Source: Rhodothermia bacterium | GTDB lineage: Bacteria > Bacteroidota > Rhodothermia > Rhodothermales > JAAAOL01 | Direction: 5' to 3' | NCBI GenBank assembly: GCA_030428385.1 | Contig: JAUIDY010000041.1 | Location: 1 to 46,390, forward strand | Length of the DNA stretch: 46,390 nt | In this document: positions 629 through 18,667 of the stretch, one piece after another | How positions within the stretch are numbered: position 1 is the stretch's first letter | Layout: every line of letters begins with the position of its first letter | Position numbers and translations under genes: made by a program | The notes under the pieces: generated by a model | The model's database searches: none | What the model saw: the letters and a program-made list of their open reading frames with translations, nothing else | Told to the model about the DNA's origin: nothing

Positions 629-3283
629 ATGAAATCGCACTTCGATCTAGAAAAAGCCATCGCGACGTGGCGGCAGTTCCACGAGCGCCGCCGGATGCTG
701 TTGCCGCAGGACCTCAACGAACTCGAGTGCCACCTGCGTGACCATGTGGCAGAGCGGGTTGGAGCGGGCGTGAGGGAAGAAGCGGCCTTTGAAGAGGCGC
801 TGCACGCGGTAGGAGATGTGGGCGAAGCCGAGCCTGAATACAAGAAGGTGTACTGGGGCAAGTTGCAGCGGCGACACGCCATCATCAACGAATTTATTTG
901 GAGAGGCACGATGCTCAGAAATTACCTGACGGTGGCCCTACGCAATTTAGGGCAGCGCAAAGGCTACACCGCCATCATTGTGACGAGCTTGGGAGTAGCG
1001 GTAACGGCAAGTTTGCTGATTCTTTCCTACATCCAGCATGAACGCTCGTTTGATACCTTCCATGATGAGGTGGAGCACCTCTACCGGGTGGGGGAAGCAG
1101 AGGAGGGCGACCCGGTCTATTTTCGCACCCGTCCCCGGTTGTTGCCTGCCGTGTTGGAGCACATCCCGGGGGTGGCGAGCGGTACCCGAACGATAGAAGC
1201 CAATCCGTGGGTCAGCTATAACAACCAGCGCTTCGAGGAATCCGGCTATTATGTAGACGACACCTTTTTTGAGGTCTTCTCGTTTCCGCTTGTGGCTGGG
1301 GATCAACGGACTGTTTGGGAGCCGCCCAACGCCGTGGTGATGTCCGAAACGCTGGCGCGAAAATATTTTGCCCAAGACGACCCGCTCGGCAAAATGGTTA
1401 TCATCGACTTTCAAGAGCATGTGGTCACGGGGGTCATGGCCGACTTTCCTGCTGCGTCCACGCTTCAGGCCGATATGCTTTTGCCGATTGCACCCTTGCC
1501 AGACCGATGGGGGGACTCCTGGAATTGGGGAAATACCTTCATGCCTATGTATCTGCGGTTGCACGGAGAGGCCAGCCCAGACGAGGTAGCCGACCAGATG
1601 GCCTCGTTGCTCCAGCGAAACATCGACGATGAGGAGGCGACCTCGTTCCTGCTTTTCCCGATGCGCGACTTCCATTTGCAAGCGGCAGGCGAATTATGGA
1701 CCCCGGGCGTAAGCGGGGCGCAAAAACGACTCCTTGTGCTCCTAATTATTGGCATCGCCATCCTTTGCATTGCGGCGATTAATGCCACCAACCTGGCAAC
1801 GGCCCAGGCCTTGACGCGCGCCCGTGAGATCGGGATGCGCAAAGTGCTGGGAGCCCACCGGGGACAGTTGATTACGCAATTTTTTGGGGAGGCGGCGCTG
1901 CTCAGTTTCGCAGCGATGCTGTTGGGAAGCGGACTGGCATGGGTCGTACATCCCTTTTTTAACGAGGTGTGGGGCACCACCATGACCCTCGACCTTCGCC
2001 AGCCCTCGGTCCTACTCCTCATCTTGGGAATAGGCGGTGTGGTGGGACTCTTGGCAGGCAGTTATCCGGCCTTTTATCTGTCGCGCTTGCGGCCCGTGGC
2101 ATCGCTGAAGGGGCGGCTGCAACACAGCCGGTTCAGCGTGCGTGCCCGAAATGGGTTGGTGGTCGCCCAATTTGCGCTCTCGGTGATGCTGATTGCAAGC
2201 ACGTTGGTGATGCACAAACAAATCACCTTTATGAAACAGCAGGAGCTTCATTTCGACGACGAGGGGGTGGTGGTGATGCCGCTTGCGGTGGATGACTTCG
2301 AGGATGAGGCCGTCGCATCTAGCCGCATTGAAACGCTGAAGTCGGAGTTGCTGCGCCATCCGGCCATTCAGGCCGTCTCCTCAGCCCGGGCCTTCCCCGG
2401 TATCAGCCGAGATTGGGCCACCGACTTCGACGTGGAGGGAGGCGCGGAGCCTGTTCACAGCCGGTGGACCTCGGTGGACGACGCCTATTTCCCGCTTTTT
2501 GGTATTGACCTGGTGGAAGGGCGCAACTTCGACGGCACCCGCGAAGCCGAGGTATGGCGCACGGCTATTATTAACGAAACCGCCCGGGCGGCGTTTGGCT
2601 GGGAAACCGCCGTCGGGAAACACATTGACTGGGGCGGCGACGAGCCGTTTGAAGTCATCGGGGTGGTGGATGATTTCCACTTTGCCTCCCTCGAAGAAGC
2701 CATCTATCCCATGGTTCACTTCTTTGGTGGCACCACCGCCTCGAATTACGACTACCTGGCGATTAAGCTGGGCCCGGGCGACGTGACGCCCGCCCTCGCG
2801 TACATCGAAGAGCAACTGGACGTGTTGGACCCCGCGCGCACGTTCGATTATTTCTTTGCCGATGCGTATTTCAACCAGCATTACGAAGAAATGGAGCGGC
2901 AAAGTGTGATGCTTGGCTTTTTTGCGGGCCTCGCCATCTTGATTGCTTGCCTGGGGTTGTTCGGGTTGGCGTCTTACATCACCACGCAGCGGAGGAAAGA
3001 GATCGGTATCCGGAAGGTGCTGGGGGCATCGGCTTCGGATGTGCTGGTGCTGCTTACAAAAAACATCGCCCTGCTGGTGCTGGTGGCGTTCGTGATCGGG
3101 GCTCCGCTGACGTTCCTCATCATGGAGCGCTGGCTGGCTGATTTTGCCTATCGCATGGAGTTGGGGAGTGGGTTGTTTTTGCTGGCAGGAGGGATGGCCT
3201 TGCTGATTGCACTGGGCACGGTCGGCTATCAATCGCTGCGGGCGGCATTGGCCGATCCGGTTAAAACCATCAGGTATGAGTAG
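629..3283 (+). CDS. FtsX/MacB-like ABC transporter permease with N-terminal permease-prefix domain
   Basis: The 884-residue membrane protein has a soluble prefix of about 90 residues (FDLEKAIATWRQFHERRR onward). A first transmembrane helix follows near residues 113-135, then a MacB-like periplasmic core. A first FtsX domain begins near residue 365 and carries the cytoplasmic motif AREIGMRKVLGA. A second core and a final FtsX domain from about residue 760 carry KEIGIRKVLGA. There is no ATPase domain and no ATPase gene in view, so it is an orphan duplicated permease, possibly working with an unlinked MacB-type ATPase. I chose the ATG at 629 because it follows the PadR stop and is matched by the paralog. 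The ATG at 911 (MLRNYLTVALRNLG) would give a version without the prefix. Substrate unknown. Confidence 0.88.
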   Translation: MKSHFDLEKAIATWRQFHERRRMLLPQDLNELECHLRDHVAERVGAGVREEAAFEEALHAVGDVGEAEPEYKKVYWGKLQRRHAIINEFIWRGTMLRNYLTVALRNLGQRKGYTAIIVTSLGVAVTASLLILSYIQHERSFDTFHDEVEHLYRVGEAEEGDPVYFRTRPRLLPAVLEHIPGVASGTRTIEANPWVSYNNQRFEESGYYVDDTFFEVFSFPLVAGDQRTVWEPPNAVVMSETLARKYFAQDDPLGKMVIIDFQEHVVTGVMADFPAASTLQADMLLPIAPLPDRWGDSWNWGNTFMPMYLRLHGEASPDEVADQMASLLQRNIDDEEATSFLLFPMRDFHLQAAGELWTPGVSGAQKRLLVLLIIGIAILCIAAINATNLATAQALTRAREIGMRKVLGAHRGQLITQFFGEAALLSFAAMLLGSGLAWVVHPFFNEVWGTTMTLDLRQPSVLLLILGIGGVVGLLAGSYPAFYLSRLRPVASLKGRLQHSRFSVRARNGLVVAQFALSVMLIASTLVMHKQITFMKQQELHFDDEGVVVMPLAVDDFEDEAVASSRIETLKSELLRHPAIQAVSSARAFPGISRDWATDFDVEGGAEPVHSRWTSVDDAYFPLFGIDLVEGRNFDGTREAEVWRTAIINETARAAFGWETAVGKHIDWGGDEPFEVIGVVDDFHFASLEEAIYPMVHFFGGTTASNYDYLAIKLGPGDVTPALAYIEEQLDVLDPARTFDYFFADAYFNQHYEEMERQSVMLGFFAGLAILIACLGLFGLASYITTQRRKEIGIRKVLGASASDVLVLLTKNIALLVLVAFVIGAPLTFLIMERWLADFAYRMELGSGLFLLAGGMALLIALGTVGYQSLRAALADPVKTIRYE
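640..726 (+). repeat. 87-bp exact direct repeat, copy 1 (permease prefix domain)
   Basis: Bases 640-726 are identical to 3293-3379 by direct comparison. Both copies encode the start of the permease prefix domain in the same reading frame. Similarity continues at a lower level for roughly 150 more bases and then falls off sharply in the membrane part. This suggests recent gene conversion or swapping of the prefix between neighbouring paralogs. Confidence 0.9.
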
Positions 3284-12596: not shown

Positions 12597-12669
12597 TGGA
12601 GCTAAGCGGAGTCGAACCGCTGACCTCTTGAGTGCGATTCAAGCGCTCTACCAACTGAGCTATAGCCCC
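12597..12669 (-). tRNA. tRNA-Ala, anticodon CGC
   Basis: The 73-nt cloverleaf on the minus strand has acceptor arms GGGGCTA and TAGCTCC with discriminator A, and D stem GCTC/GAGC. The anticodon stem CTTGA/TCAAG encloses the loop ATCGCAC, giving anticodon CGC. The T arm is AGCGG-TTCGACT-CCGCT. The third acceptor pair is G-U, the identity signal of alanine tRNA. It reads GCG codons. The 3' CCA is not encoded, as is common in Bacteroidota. Confidence 0.96.
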
Positions 12670-15885: not shown

Positions 15886-16251
15886 ATGGACATTCAACAA
15901 GCACTCGACAAAGCCATGGAAATTAACGGCGCCGTAGGCGTCGCGCTGGTGGACTTTACCTCCGGCATGTGCCTGGGCACCGCAGGCGGTGGTCCCATTG
16001 ACCTGGAACTTGCTGCCGCTGGTAACACCGAAGTCGTTCGTGCCAAGAAGAATGTGCGGGACAAATTAAAGATCAAAGACAGCATTGAAGACATTCTGAT
16101 TACGCTGGAAACCCAGTACCATTTGATCCGCATGTTCCACAACAGCAAAAATATCTTCCTGTACCTGGTGCTGGACCGGAAGTCGAGCAACCTGGCATTG
16201 TCCCGGATGAGCCTGCGTGCCATTGACGAGGAACTTGAAGTCAAGGTTTGA
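15886..16251 (+). CDS. Roadblock/LC7-like domain protein (copy 1)
   Basis: The 121-residue protein consists of a single Roadblock/LC7-like domain. ALDKAMEINGAVGVALVDFTSG forms the first helix and strand (residues 6-27), LELAAAGNTEVV is near 39-50, and EDILITLETQYHLIRMF is near 66-82. Such proteins act as dimeric platforms or GTPase-activating partners, as MglB does for MglA. The ATG at 15886 has a good ribosome site, AAGAGG, 7 bases upstream. It shares ELAAAGNTE, DILIT and QYHLIR with the gene at 18218, so the two are paralogs. The ParA-like gene between them suggests a common module. No small Ras-like GTPase is in the window. Cytosolic. Confidence 0.82.
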   Translation: MDIQQALDKAMEINGAVGVALVDFTSGMCLGTAGGGPIDLELAAAGNTEVVRAKKNVRDKLKIKDSIEDILITLETQYHLIRMFHNSKNIFLYLVLDRKSSNLALSRMSLRAIDEELEVKV

Positions 16252-16274
16252 GCAAACACAAAACGATGTTTGGC

Positions 16275-16317
16275 AAAGAAGCCCGGCAGGAACAAGCTCT
16301 GCTGGGCTTCTTTTTTT
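16275..16317 (+). terminator. Intrinsic terminator after Roadblock gene 1
   Basis: AAAGAAGCCCGGCAG (16275-16289) pairs with CTGCTGGGCTTCTTT (16299-16313), with one C-T mismatch in the stem. It runs into TTTTTTT. It starts 23 bases after the stop, so the first Roadblock gene is probably transcribed separately from the ParA-like gene. Confidence 0.9.
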
Positions 16318-17314
16318 GTATCTGATACCAATTCTGAGAAATATGTGTGCAGCGGTCGGGGGAAGCGCATTCTGATCATCACCCAGGTAATTCGGCGTTT
16401 TGATGTACTTTGAAATGCTGCCTAGCCGTCCGACCCGCTGATTCGGTTAGATTCGTTGATCTTTGTGGCACCCGCCAACGGCGGTAGGGGCGATAGCCAT
16501 CGGTTGGTCAGGAGGCAATGATCCATTGGGTGCCCTACTTTTTTTTAGTATTGGTAATTGCGCCAACAGGGCATAGAAATTGCTACACAATTTTTTCACA
16601 CCACCCCTTTTTAATTAAGCTAATTCGTAACTTTGAGCGTGTACCCCCTTAATAGGTAGCGCGTCTTTACCGAAACTACCTTCGTCACACAATCCTTTAA
16701 CAACCCACGCTGTCGAACCCATTTTTGCTTCCTTCGAACCAGGTGCAGATGGGTAATTATTAGGAGCCTCGGCTACTGTTCCTGCTTTCTGCTCCCCGCC
16801 TATCCCCAAGGAACATCATACAAGCCGTCCCTAATCGCCTCAGTTACTACTTTTCGCATCACTTCGACTTTTCCGGCCAGTGGCATCAAGAGAAGTCATT
16901 CGATTCGGGCCTTAACTTGGTCCAACCAAGCTGCAAGGATGGGAGGGTTCAGCGTTTAACCCTCATTCCTCATGTCCGCTGTATGTCCTTGCCGAACGGC
17001 TAACGCTCCCCCGTTGTTGGGTGTCTGTGTACCCGAACGCCTATTCTTTGCTTGTTGAAAGCAACACGGCTTTTGAAAGGGTTTGTCTGTCAGCAAATCG
17101 ACTGTGCAAACAGTGCCGTTTCTGCTCCCTGCGGTGTTTGTTGATGCGTTAAGCCTGTAGGATTTTTCCTACACCGTTATTTCCACTAGCCTTATTCGAA
17201 TTGAAGAATTTGCTTACGAAGAAATGACAAGGAATGCGCGATGCTAAAATGGTCGTCAAATTAAACCCAATTTAATCCCTGCCTTTATGGGAGGGGCATA
17301 GATACCAGTAGCCC
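16318..17314. other. Unexplained ~1-kb region, locally AT-rich, with short minus-strand frames
   Basis: There is no protein of recognisable family here. Parts, notably about 16540-16830, are richer in A and T than the flanking genes. The minus strand holds a 28-codon ATG frame starting MPLAGKVEVMRK and ending DGLYDVPWG (about 16895-16809). In another phase, a 64-codon TTG frame (16809-16615) ends in AQSYELA. The two could be pieces of one frameshifted gene. A tmRNA-like GGGTTCGACAGCG occurs at about 16711 on the minus strand, but no tRNA-like 3' end was found. A hairpin with a T8 run is listed separately. The promoter of the ParA-like gene should lie at its right end. Confidence 0.5.
16467..16546 (+). 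ncRNA. Candidate structured RNA or orphan terminator hairpin
   Basis: GGCACCC (16467-16473) pairs with GGGTGCC (16528-16534). Inside it CCAAC (16475-16479) pairs with GTTGG (16503-16507) around a smaller GGC/GCC stem. A run of eight T follows at 16539-16546. This nested fold with a T run looks like the end of a small plus-strand RNA. No known family was recognised, and no convincing promoter was seen. Confidence 0.35.
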
Positions 17315-18145
17315 ATGTTAAAGACGATTTCAGTTATCAACAATATGAGTGTTGGTCAGGTTAAGGGCCAACAAATGGCGTCCATGCTAACCTTGATGGC
17401 TGCCGGTTTAGCCAGCGAAAGCCAACGCACACTGTTGGTGGATTTGCATTCCAACGCGCGCGTTTCCAAAGCCTTCATAGAAAATGGCCGCCACTTCCTT
17501 CCCGGCATCGCGGAGGTGCTGACGCGGCAGATACCCATTCAAGAGGCCATTCGGTCAGTGGAAGGGACGCGGCTAGACTTGCTGGTGGGGGGCCCCTGCA
17601 TGGAGGGGGTGGAACCCGTCCTGCGAACCATCGAGGATGGGGCCTGGCAACTCAAGCAACGGCTGGATGAAGTGCGTAAAAACTATGACCTGATTCTTAT
17701 TGACTGCCCTTGCTTTCTGTCGCAGGCAGCGGTGAATGCTTTTTTTGCGTCCGATGCGTTTATGTTTGCCTTTGCGCCATCGCCCTTGTCAATGAGCCAG
17801 ATGCACAAGATGTACAGTGCCATTCAAAACGTACGGTTTAATGTAGGCAAGGTCGCGCCCTTGTTGGGCATCTTGTTGCCCTTGCTTGAGCCGAAGGAAG
17901 AGGAAACGCAAGTTTTGGCCCAGAAAGTGCGCCAGTCCTTTGGGGGCAAGCTACTCCGCACCAAGGTGCATGTGCCTGTTCCTCGTGAACCTGATCATCC
18001 CGCGAAAAAGTCCCGGTTGTTACTGGGCGATTGGGATTATGACCGGGCGGTGTATGAGCAAATCAATGAGCTGGAAGTGGAAGTAAAAGAGCGACTGGAG
18101 CGGTGCCAGAAAATTCTGGGTCGCCGTGCTCGATATGACCTATAA
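17315..18145 (+). CDS. ParA/MinD-like protein with degenerate P-loop
   Basis: The 276-residue protein has the ParA/MinD fold order. Strand 1 is KTISVINN, LLVDLHSNARVSKAF (40-54) replaces the Walker A' segment, and YDLILIDCP (124-132) is the Walker B strand, followed by FFASDAFMFAFAPSPLS. The deviant Walker A that should read KGGVGKT is replaced by NMSVGQVKGQQ (10-20). The canonical lysines are not in place, so ATP hydrolysis is doubtful; atypical P-loops are known in TadZ/CpaE relatives. There is no receiver domain. The C-terminal 40 residues are charged and helical. It lies between two Roadblock-like paralogs and 72 bases before the second. No parB gene or origin is nearby, so a chromosome partition role is unlikely. 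Confidence 0.82.
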   Translation: MLKTISVINNMSVGQVKGQQMASMLTLMAAGLASESQRTLLVDLHSNARVSKAFIENGRHFLPGIAEVLTRQIPIQEAIRSVEGTRLDLLVGGPCMEGVEPVLRTIEDGAWQLKQRLDEVRKNYDLILIDCPCFLSQAAVNAFFASDAFMFAFAPSPLSMSQMHKMYSAIQNVRFNVGKVAPLLGILLPLLEPKEEETQVLAQKVRQSFGGKLLRTKVHVPVPREPDHPAKKSRLLLGDWDYDRAVYEQINELEVEVKERLERCQKILGRRARYDL

Positions 18146-18217
18146 GTTGACCGGAAAAAATAAAAAAATAATCACGAAGCCCGTTGAGTACTTCTGCTTT
18201 TGGCCGATACGGTTGAT

Positions 18218-18667
18218 ATGATGGAAACGCTAGCCAAAAGGAACGGGATTCACAGCTCGAAACAGCCACAGGTGCGAACGCAGAAAGGTATCGTTCGGAC
18301 GCCACCGGCGTTGCAGAAAAAGATACAGGCTGCGCTGGAGGAGGCCATGGCGATAGACGGGGCGTTAGGAGCTGCACTGGTTGATCTGCACTCGGGTGTC
18401 TGCCTGTCTTCTGCGGGAAGCAGTGAACTGGATATGGAACTGGCAGCAGCTGGCAATACGGAGATGATCAACATCCAGCAGGAGATTGGGCGCTTGTTTG
18501 GACAATCCGATGAGGTGGAGGACATCCTCATCACGCGGAAGGCGCAATATCACCTCATCCGCTTGTTTCCCAGTCAGCCGGATCTGTTTCTCTATGTGGT
18601 GCTCAGCCGTGAAGCAACCAGCCTAGCTATGGCGCGGCTGGGGGTTAATAAGATCACCTTTGCCTGA
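18218..18667 (+). CDS. Roadblock/LC7-like domain protein (copy 2)
   Basis: The 149-residue protein has a polar N-terminal extension of about 38 residues and then a Roadblock/LC7-like domain. ALEEAMAIDGALGAALVDLHSG, MELAAAGNTEMI and DILITRKAQYHLIRLF match the first copy residue by residue in many positions. The ATG at 18218 is preferred over a TTG at 18200; a second ATG follows directly at 18221. It lies 72 bases after the ParA-like gene on the same strand and is probably co-transcribed. Its last 14 bases overlap the end of the convergent methyltransferase gene. Its partner and signal are unknown. Confidence 0.8.
   Translation: MMETLAKRNGIHSSKQPQVRTQKGIVRTPPALQKKIQAALEEAMAIDGALGAALVDLHSGVCLSSAGSSELDMELAAAGNTEMINIQQEIGRLFGQSDEVEDILITRKAQYHLIRLFPSQPDLFLYVVLSREATSLAMARLGVNKITFA

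Follow-up and report, generated by a model that had tools for sequence, protein, structure and literature searches.

Roadblock proteins regulate Ras-like GTPases and were long ago proposed as general regulators of NTPases. Do they also work with proteins of the ParA fold, and what becomes of such a pair when the ParA partner loses its ATP site? Both questions are raised by a three-gene locus (Rb1, a ParA-like gene and Rb2; Table 1) on contig JAUIDY010000041.1 of a Rhodothermia bacterium (assembly GCA_030428385.1), a stretch of 46,390 nucleotides referred to here as the window. A recurrent tie between Roadblock and ParA proteins would join two main bacterial cell-positioning machineries, the MglA type and the ParA type, in one operon, and a ParA pseudo-ATPase still accompanied by its Roadblock partner, if derived in this way, would offer a natural test for where in the pair the function resides.

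Two Roadblock proteins in separate transcription units

All three ORFs were found where the first-pass annotation had placed them, and in this respect its description of two Roadblock genes flanking a ParA-like gene holds; the three do not, however, form one operon. Rb1 is followed by the strongest terminator-like hairpin of a region in which the number of such sites is near chance, and then by a gap of about 1 kb (1.06 kb from the end of Rb1 to the ParA-like gene), and is therefore assigned to a transcription unit of its own. Rb2 lies 72 bp 3' of the ParA-like gene in the same orientation, and these two look like an operon, the sole operon-like pair among the three genes. An in-frame stop lies just 5' of the ATG of the ParA-like gene. 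The gap contains no ORF that reaches 80 aa and has no Rfam match; it shows no convincing homology to the Roadblock family, to ParA or to X (the small protein encoded behind ParA in relatives, described below), and was rejected as a hidden gene, a decayed X or a known RNA.

The flanks are ordinary (aconitase, an RsmB-type methyltransferase and a ClpX-like ATPase), the G+C content of the locus is slightly below that of its surroundings, and a search for defence systems gave no PADLOC match. An empty-site test with the flanking genes was uninformative because the aconitase and RsmB-type genes do not adjoin in the relatives examined. Elsewhere in the window lies a tRNA gene.

Table 1. Coordinates of the features discussed, in the window and in the loci used for comparison
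Feature	Sequence	Position	Strand	Remarks
Rb1	window	15886..16251	+	121 aa, ATG 15886; Roadblock fold; family widespread, usually labelled 'hypothetical'; conserved, on a short branch
Intrinsic-terminator-like hairpin and T-tail	window	16275..16313	+	stem of 16 pairs, then T run; ends the transcription unit of Rb1
Gap of about 1 kb	window	16314..17314		no recognisable gene or RNA family; 48% G+C against 58% in the window
ParA-fold pseudo-ATPase	window	17315..18145	+	276 aa, ATG 17315; P-loop replaced, residues ~11-24; adenine loop ~223-241 lost
Rb2	window	18218..18667	+	149-155 aa, ATG 18218 or TTG 18200; second protein of the Rb1 family
tRNA gene	window	12597-12669	-	Rfam RF00005
ParA-to-Roadblock operon, G060:C9	L040	5264-9003		
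ParA-to-kinase gene set, G047:C5	L042	7347-10482		
X	L037	10135-10539		
X	L048	7738-8157		
X	L060	13329-13763		
X	L171	6715-7128		
Broken ParA fragments, G100	L172	7113-7274 and 8818-9153		near Roadblock gene
Relative of these fragments, G060	L035	9555-10418		intact
Inorganic-pyrophosphatase-like gene	L041	7776-8725		
Inorganic-pyrophosphatase-like gene	L108	4332-5294		
Inorganic-pyrophosphatase-like gene	L167	8292-9586		
Response regulator with Roadblock domain	L058	8745-9926		
Response regulator with Roadblock domain	L059	8526-9791		
Rup/Rab-like small GTPase, window genome	L180 (G000:C196)	1357-1854		

The AF2 model of Rb1 (pLDDT 93.6, pTM 0.87) is a high-confidence Roadblock fold with the MglB-like order alpha-beta-beta-alpha-beta-beta-beta-alpha, which places the protein in the Roadblock/LC7 superfamily, and in the PDB it matches chains of MglB, archaeal Roadblock proteins and Ragulator best (MglB 6h5b_B: E 1.1e-6, TM 0.81). 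At the profile level, neither Rb1 nor Rb2 matches Pfam Robl_LC7 (PF03259, MglB proper), and Rb1 scores 25.2 bits against LAMTOR5, under the cut-off of 27. Rb1 is 71% identical to the copy in a Myxococcota-type MAG and 45-66% identical to Salinibacteraceae-type copies. Rb2 is a homologue of Rb1 (47-49% identity; 49% over 111 aa) with about 35 extra basic residues at its N terminus, and it is fast-evolving (branch length 1.75, against 0.27 for the conserved Rb1). The two had been called paralogous; they do belong to one family, but a closest mutual relationship is not supported by the tree. Similarly, the segments ELAAAGNTE, DILIT and QYHLIR that they share are real but represent a family consensus found across several phyla rather than a private signature.

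The ParA-like protein: retained fold and altered ATP site

From residue 25 onward the ParA-like protein matches Pfam AAA_31 (4.5e-21, 76 bits), and its AF2 model (pTM 0.80) is a complete Soj/ParA fold, close to Soj (Z ~28-30, rmsd ~2.1-2.3 over 236-247 residues) and to McdA (Z ~25). The fold of these ParA/MinD positioning ATPases is therefore shared over nearly the whole length. Model confidence is low at residues 12-21 (P-loop), at residues 223-241 (adenine loop) and at the extreme C terminus.

Alignment with 19 relatives locates the changes. The P-loop reads INNMSVGQVKGQQ in the window protein against INNKGGVGKTTT in the relatives, with loss of the lysine; over the wider P-loop region, INNMSVGQVKGQQMASMLTLMAAGLA stands where the relatives have INNKGGVGKTTTTVNLAAGLA, five residues longer and lacking GK[T/S]; and the deviant Walker A motif KGGxxK[T/S], present in the relatives as KGGVGKTTT or close variants, is replaced by INNMSVGQVKGQQMAS. 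This is exactly the P-loop sequence that the first-pass annotation had quoted, and the Walker B strand (LILIDCP, aspartate present) is intact as it stated; the C-terminal helix ERLER is also kept. Two losses come in addition: DLDSQ has become DLHSN, so that the aspartate of the DxD element is gone, and the C-terminal adenine loop is unrecognisable, with none of its four conserved columns kept. Of the 83 columns conserved in 16 relatives, the window protein retains 10/30 within the three ATP-site regions and 30/53 elsewhere. A frameshift or sequencing error was considered as the origin of the P-loop loss and rejected: no other reading frame of the gene contains a P-loop motif, and a simple frameshift is therefore not the cause.

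The reading frame itself is uninterrupted. With stop-creating changes making up 3.9% of random substitutions in this frame, a neutral phase of more than about 0.09 substitutions per site is likely to have introduced a stop, and all 276 codons are open. Codon usage in the gene (0.61) lies far closer to that of the neighbouring genes (0.65-0.76) than does that of its own off-frames (0.42-0.44); codon adaptation is lower in the ParA-like gene and Rb2 than in Rb1.

The form without a P-loop was found in one genome only. Neither the order (114 genomes) nor 394 genomes sampled from the phylum nor plasmids yielded a closer orthologue or anything above 36% identity, and the ParA of every relative checked carries KGGVGKT, KGGIGKT or KGGVAKT. 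The pseudo-ATPase is therefore a property of the window genome alone, and its conservation cannot be shown from one genome when no other protein comes closer than 36% identity. Its branch is extreme (6.2), and this length leaves its place in the tree unfixed. Other ParA proteins of the same genome have KGGVGKT. TadZ and CpaE are ParA-like proteins with a departed Walker A that act as localisation scaffolds; the window protein resembles them in joining a ParA fold to a departed Walker A, and differs in that no Tad pilus genes occur among the neighbours examined and a Roadblock partner is found instead.

Roadblock and ParA genes in related genomes

The pairing of Roadblock and ParA genes is real and not due to chance. 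The Roadblock family of Rb1 (hereafter RbI) occurs in 8/114 genomes of the order, and still in 8/245 at class level; the ParA subfamily occurs in 11/114 genomes of the order, among them all eight with RbI. The hypergeometric probability of this co-occurrence is 3e-10 over the order, a value inflated by shared ancestry, and ~5e-4 within one main family, which includes Salinivenus (Salinibacteraceae), among the members that were countable. A ParA gene lies within 5 kb at 6 of the 13 RbI loci, against 0.08 expected, with a cut-off set after the loci were seen and with ParA copy numbers assumed at the thresholds used. The association of homologues, whose absence would have spoken against the first-pass proposal, thus recurs in related genomes by co-occurrence and by linkage.

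In Salinibacteraceae-type genomes the ParA is canonical and is mostly followed by X, a small uncharacterised acidic protein (~100-190 aa; FFGSVF...DDPLL...GW...SLFDFG) encoded directly 3' of most ParA-subfamily genes, for which the two copies scanned gave no Pfam match. McdA and McdB likewise consist of a ParA protein with a small downstream partner, and X is a candidate cargo adaptor. The resemblance to Soj and McdA has its limits in the missing P-loop of the window copy and in the acidic X without a Pfam match. Searched within the window, X was not found beside the ParA-like gene, ParA and RbI both being present.

Two loci show a fuller arrangement. In G060, ParA, X, a Robl_LC7 protein, an MglA-like GTPase, a protoglobin (PF11563, 1e-30) and RbI follow one another on one strand; in G047, the set comprises ParA, X, Robl_LC7, protoglobin, RbI and a PAS-type kinase recognised from sequence reading. 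With MglB, GTPase and globin beside them, Roadblock and ParA sit within a signalling context of the GTPase type that includes a heme sensor, and the Roadblock proteins therefore meet ParA alongside a Ras-like GTPase and not instead of it. A pseudo-ATPase partner in place of the GTPase is thus not supported in that form, since the relatives have a canonical ParA together with MglB and an MglA-like GTPase. The first-pass interpretation is partly supported: the Roadblock/ParA association recurs, but as an extension of Ras-like GTPase systems. The globin suggests a gas or redox input. We found no report of such a ParA-X-MglB-GTPase-protoglobin-RbI operon in the open-access literature, and a G-protein/heme-sensor operon with ParA appears to be undescribed; the same literature yielded no description of a Roadblock/ParA operon or of a ParA pseudoenzyme, in agreement with the initial view that no system with this layout had been described. 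These operon-like Salinibacteraceae-type gene sets, with or without the GTPase, may deserve more attention than the window locus itself.

Outside Rhodothermota, Rb1 has relatives at ~50-71% identity in Actinomycetota, Herpetosiphon, Marinobacter, Nitrospirota, Acidobacteriota and Myxococcota-type MAGs, and at more or less similar identity on plasmids, mostly annotated as 'hypothetical'. For many of them the nearby genes encode further Roadblock proteins, Ras-like GTPases, BLUF proteins, kinases or response regulators; a ParA family gene was found near none of the RbI loci examined there. Group 3 MglA systems combine a GTPase with one or two MglB homologues and a receiver-like/winged-helix protein (Wuichet and Sogaard-Andersen, PMC4316618). 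A plasmid locus in Comamonas, with genes for an HTH-like protein, a GTPase, Robl_LC7 and RbI, is similar to them. Common to these systems and the present families are the Roadblock fold and, for relatives of Rb1, the company of MglB and an MglA-like GTPase; conversely, the neighbourhood descriptions in that study mention no ParA, and the window has neither MglB nor MglA nearby and two Roadblock proteins outside Robl_LC7. The actinobacterial conservons (CvnA-D) are signalling operons of sensor kinase, Roadblock protein and small GTPase (PMC13343842), comparable in placing a Roadblock protein in a signalling operon and different in having no ParA; the actinobacterial RbI genes sit in multi-Roadblock clusters that are not necessarily conservons. 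In HGbRL of Methylacidiphilum a globin is fused to a Roadblock domain (PMC4476040), a coupling that the protoglobin-RbI neighbours of G060 and G047 also suggest, here as separate genes, whereas no ParA is reported for HGbRL.

Two genomes carry an inorganic-pyrophosphatase-like gene next to a Roadblock gene, and a third carries one next to ParA-X, which may reflect a neighbourhood inherited from a common ancestor.

Scaffold, relic or bystander

We tentatively favour, with less than even confidence, the explanation that the window holds a reduced, lineage-specific derivative of the Roadblock/ParA module in which the ParA-like pseudo-ATPase survives as a scaffold binding Rb2. In that module as Salinibacteraceae-type genomes have it, with a putative role in signalling and positioning, MglB, an MglA-like GTPase and a heme sensor join the ParA ATPase, X and the Roadblock protein. 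In the window, Rb1 would persist as a conserved Roadblock adaptor on its own transcript. Judged from its motifs, the ParA-like protein is probably an ATP-dead pseudo-ATPase and a scaffold for its Roadblock neighbour: it would no longer bind ATP normally, so that the ATP-driven cycle of DNA binding and dimerization could not run, and would be held in a fixed state in contact with its operon partner Rb2, the two having evolved fast together. Pairing of Rb1 with Rb2, presumably as a heterodimer, would then pass a Roadblock-dependent signal from the scaffold to an unlinked target. This explanation draws on the same gene pairing in relatives, with ParA then X at most loci and the full operons of G060 and G047, on the coherent loss of the ATP site while the fold stays, and on a frame that has remained open, with codon usage far closer to that of its neighbours than its off-frames show, despite very long divergence.

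Nearly as compatible with these data, if in our estimate rather unlikely, is its main rival, a relic: the ParA-X/Roadblock module is being lost, relaxed selection has removed the ATPase of the ParA-like protein, which has little or no function, X and the GTPase part have already disappeared, and only Rb1 works. The extreme branch of a protein known from one genome also fits relaxed constraint, codon adaptation is lower in the ParA-like gene and Rb2 than in Rb1, X, MglB and the MglA-like GTPase are unlinked in the window, and the window genome as a whole yielded no Robl_LC7 protein. The ParA fragments adjoining RbI in G100 indicate that ParA can be lost in such a setting, and RbI itself is broken by a stop in G092. 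Against decay speak the stop-free frame with its frame-specific codon usage and folded core, changes that hit the ATP site more than other conserved columns, and Rb2 so close downstream in the same orientation.

The scaffold may also be one form of a wider arrangement, which we regard as unlikely, though worth stating: a Roadblock-regulated ParA-fold switch in Rhodothermota, whose wiring includes an MglA-like GTPase as well as a heme sensor, and whose ParA in the lineage of the window would have become a nucleotide-independent scaffold under Roadblock control only.

A further and still less probable alternative is that the Roadblock proteins depend, like those of other bacteria, solely on a Ras-like GTPase from another locus, the ParA-like gene being a non-contacting neighbour. 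Comamonas, Agarilytica, an Acidimicrobiales MAG and G060 all have RbI genes with Ras-like GTPases and Robl_LC7 proteins for neighbours, and although the window neighbourhood contains no Ras-like GTPase or MglB gene, such as the GTPase beside the relative in G060, the window genome does have a single strong Ras-like GTPase, a Rup-like protein on another contig (C196) adjoining a histidine kinase. This candidate, however, is also present in the sister genome G001, which is without the Roadblock family, and the linkage and co-occurrence of ParA with RbI recur in the order. The C196 gene lies beside a receiver-like gene as well as the kinase, and the arrangement is conserved in G001.

That the locus is what remains of a partition system, of plasmid or chromosome origin, in which the Roadblock genes are mere passengers, as the ParA fold, the plasmid-borne RbI genes and the slightly lower G+C content might suggest, is very improbable given the lost P-loop, the other KGGVGKT ParA proteins of the genome, the lack of an adjoining ParB-like gene (the neighbours are Rb2 and the RsmB-type methyltransferase) and of a parS-like site in the window, and the plasmid RbI neighbourhoods examined, which show no directly adjoining ParA.

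In Myxococcota-type MAGs, the RbI family also provides the C-terminal Roadblock domain of a response regulator, whose gene adjoins those of a kinase, an NtrC-type regulator and a stand-alone relative of Rb1.
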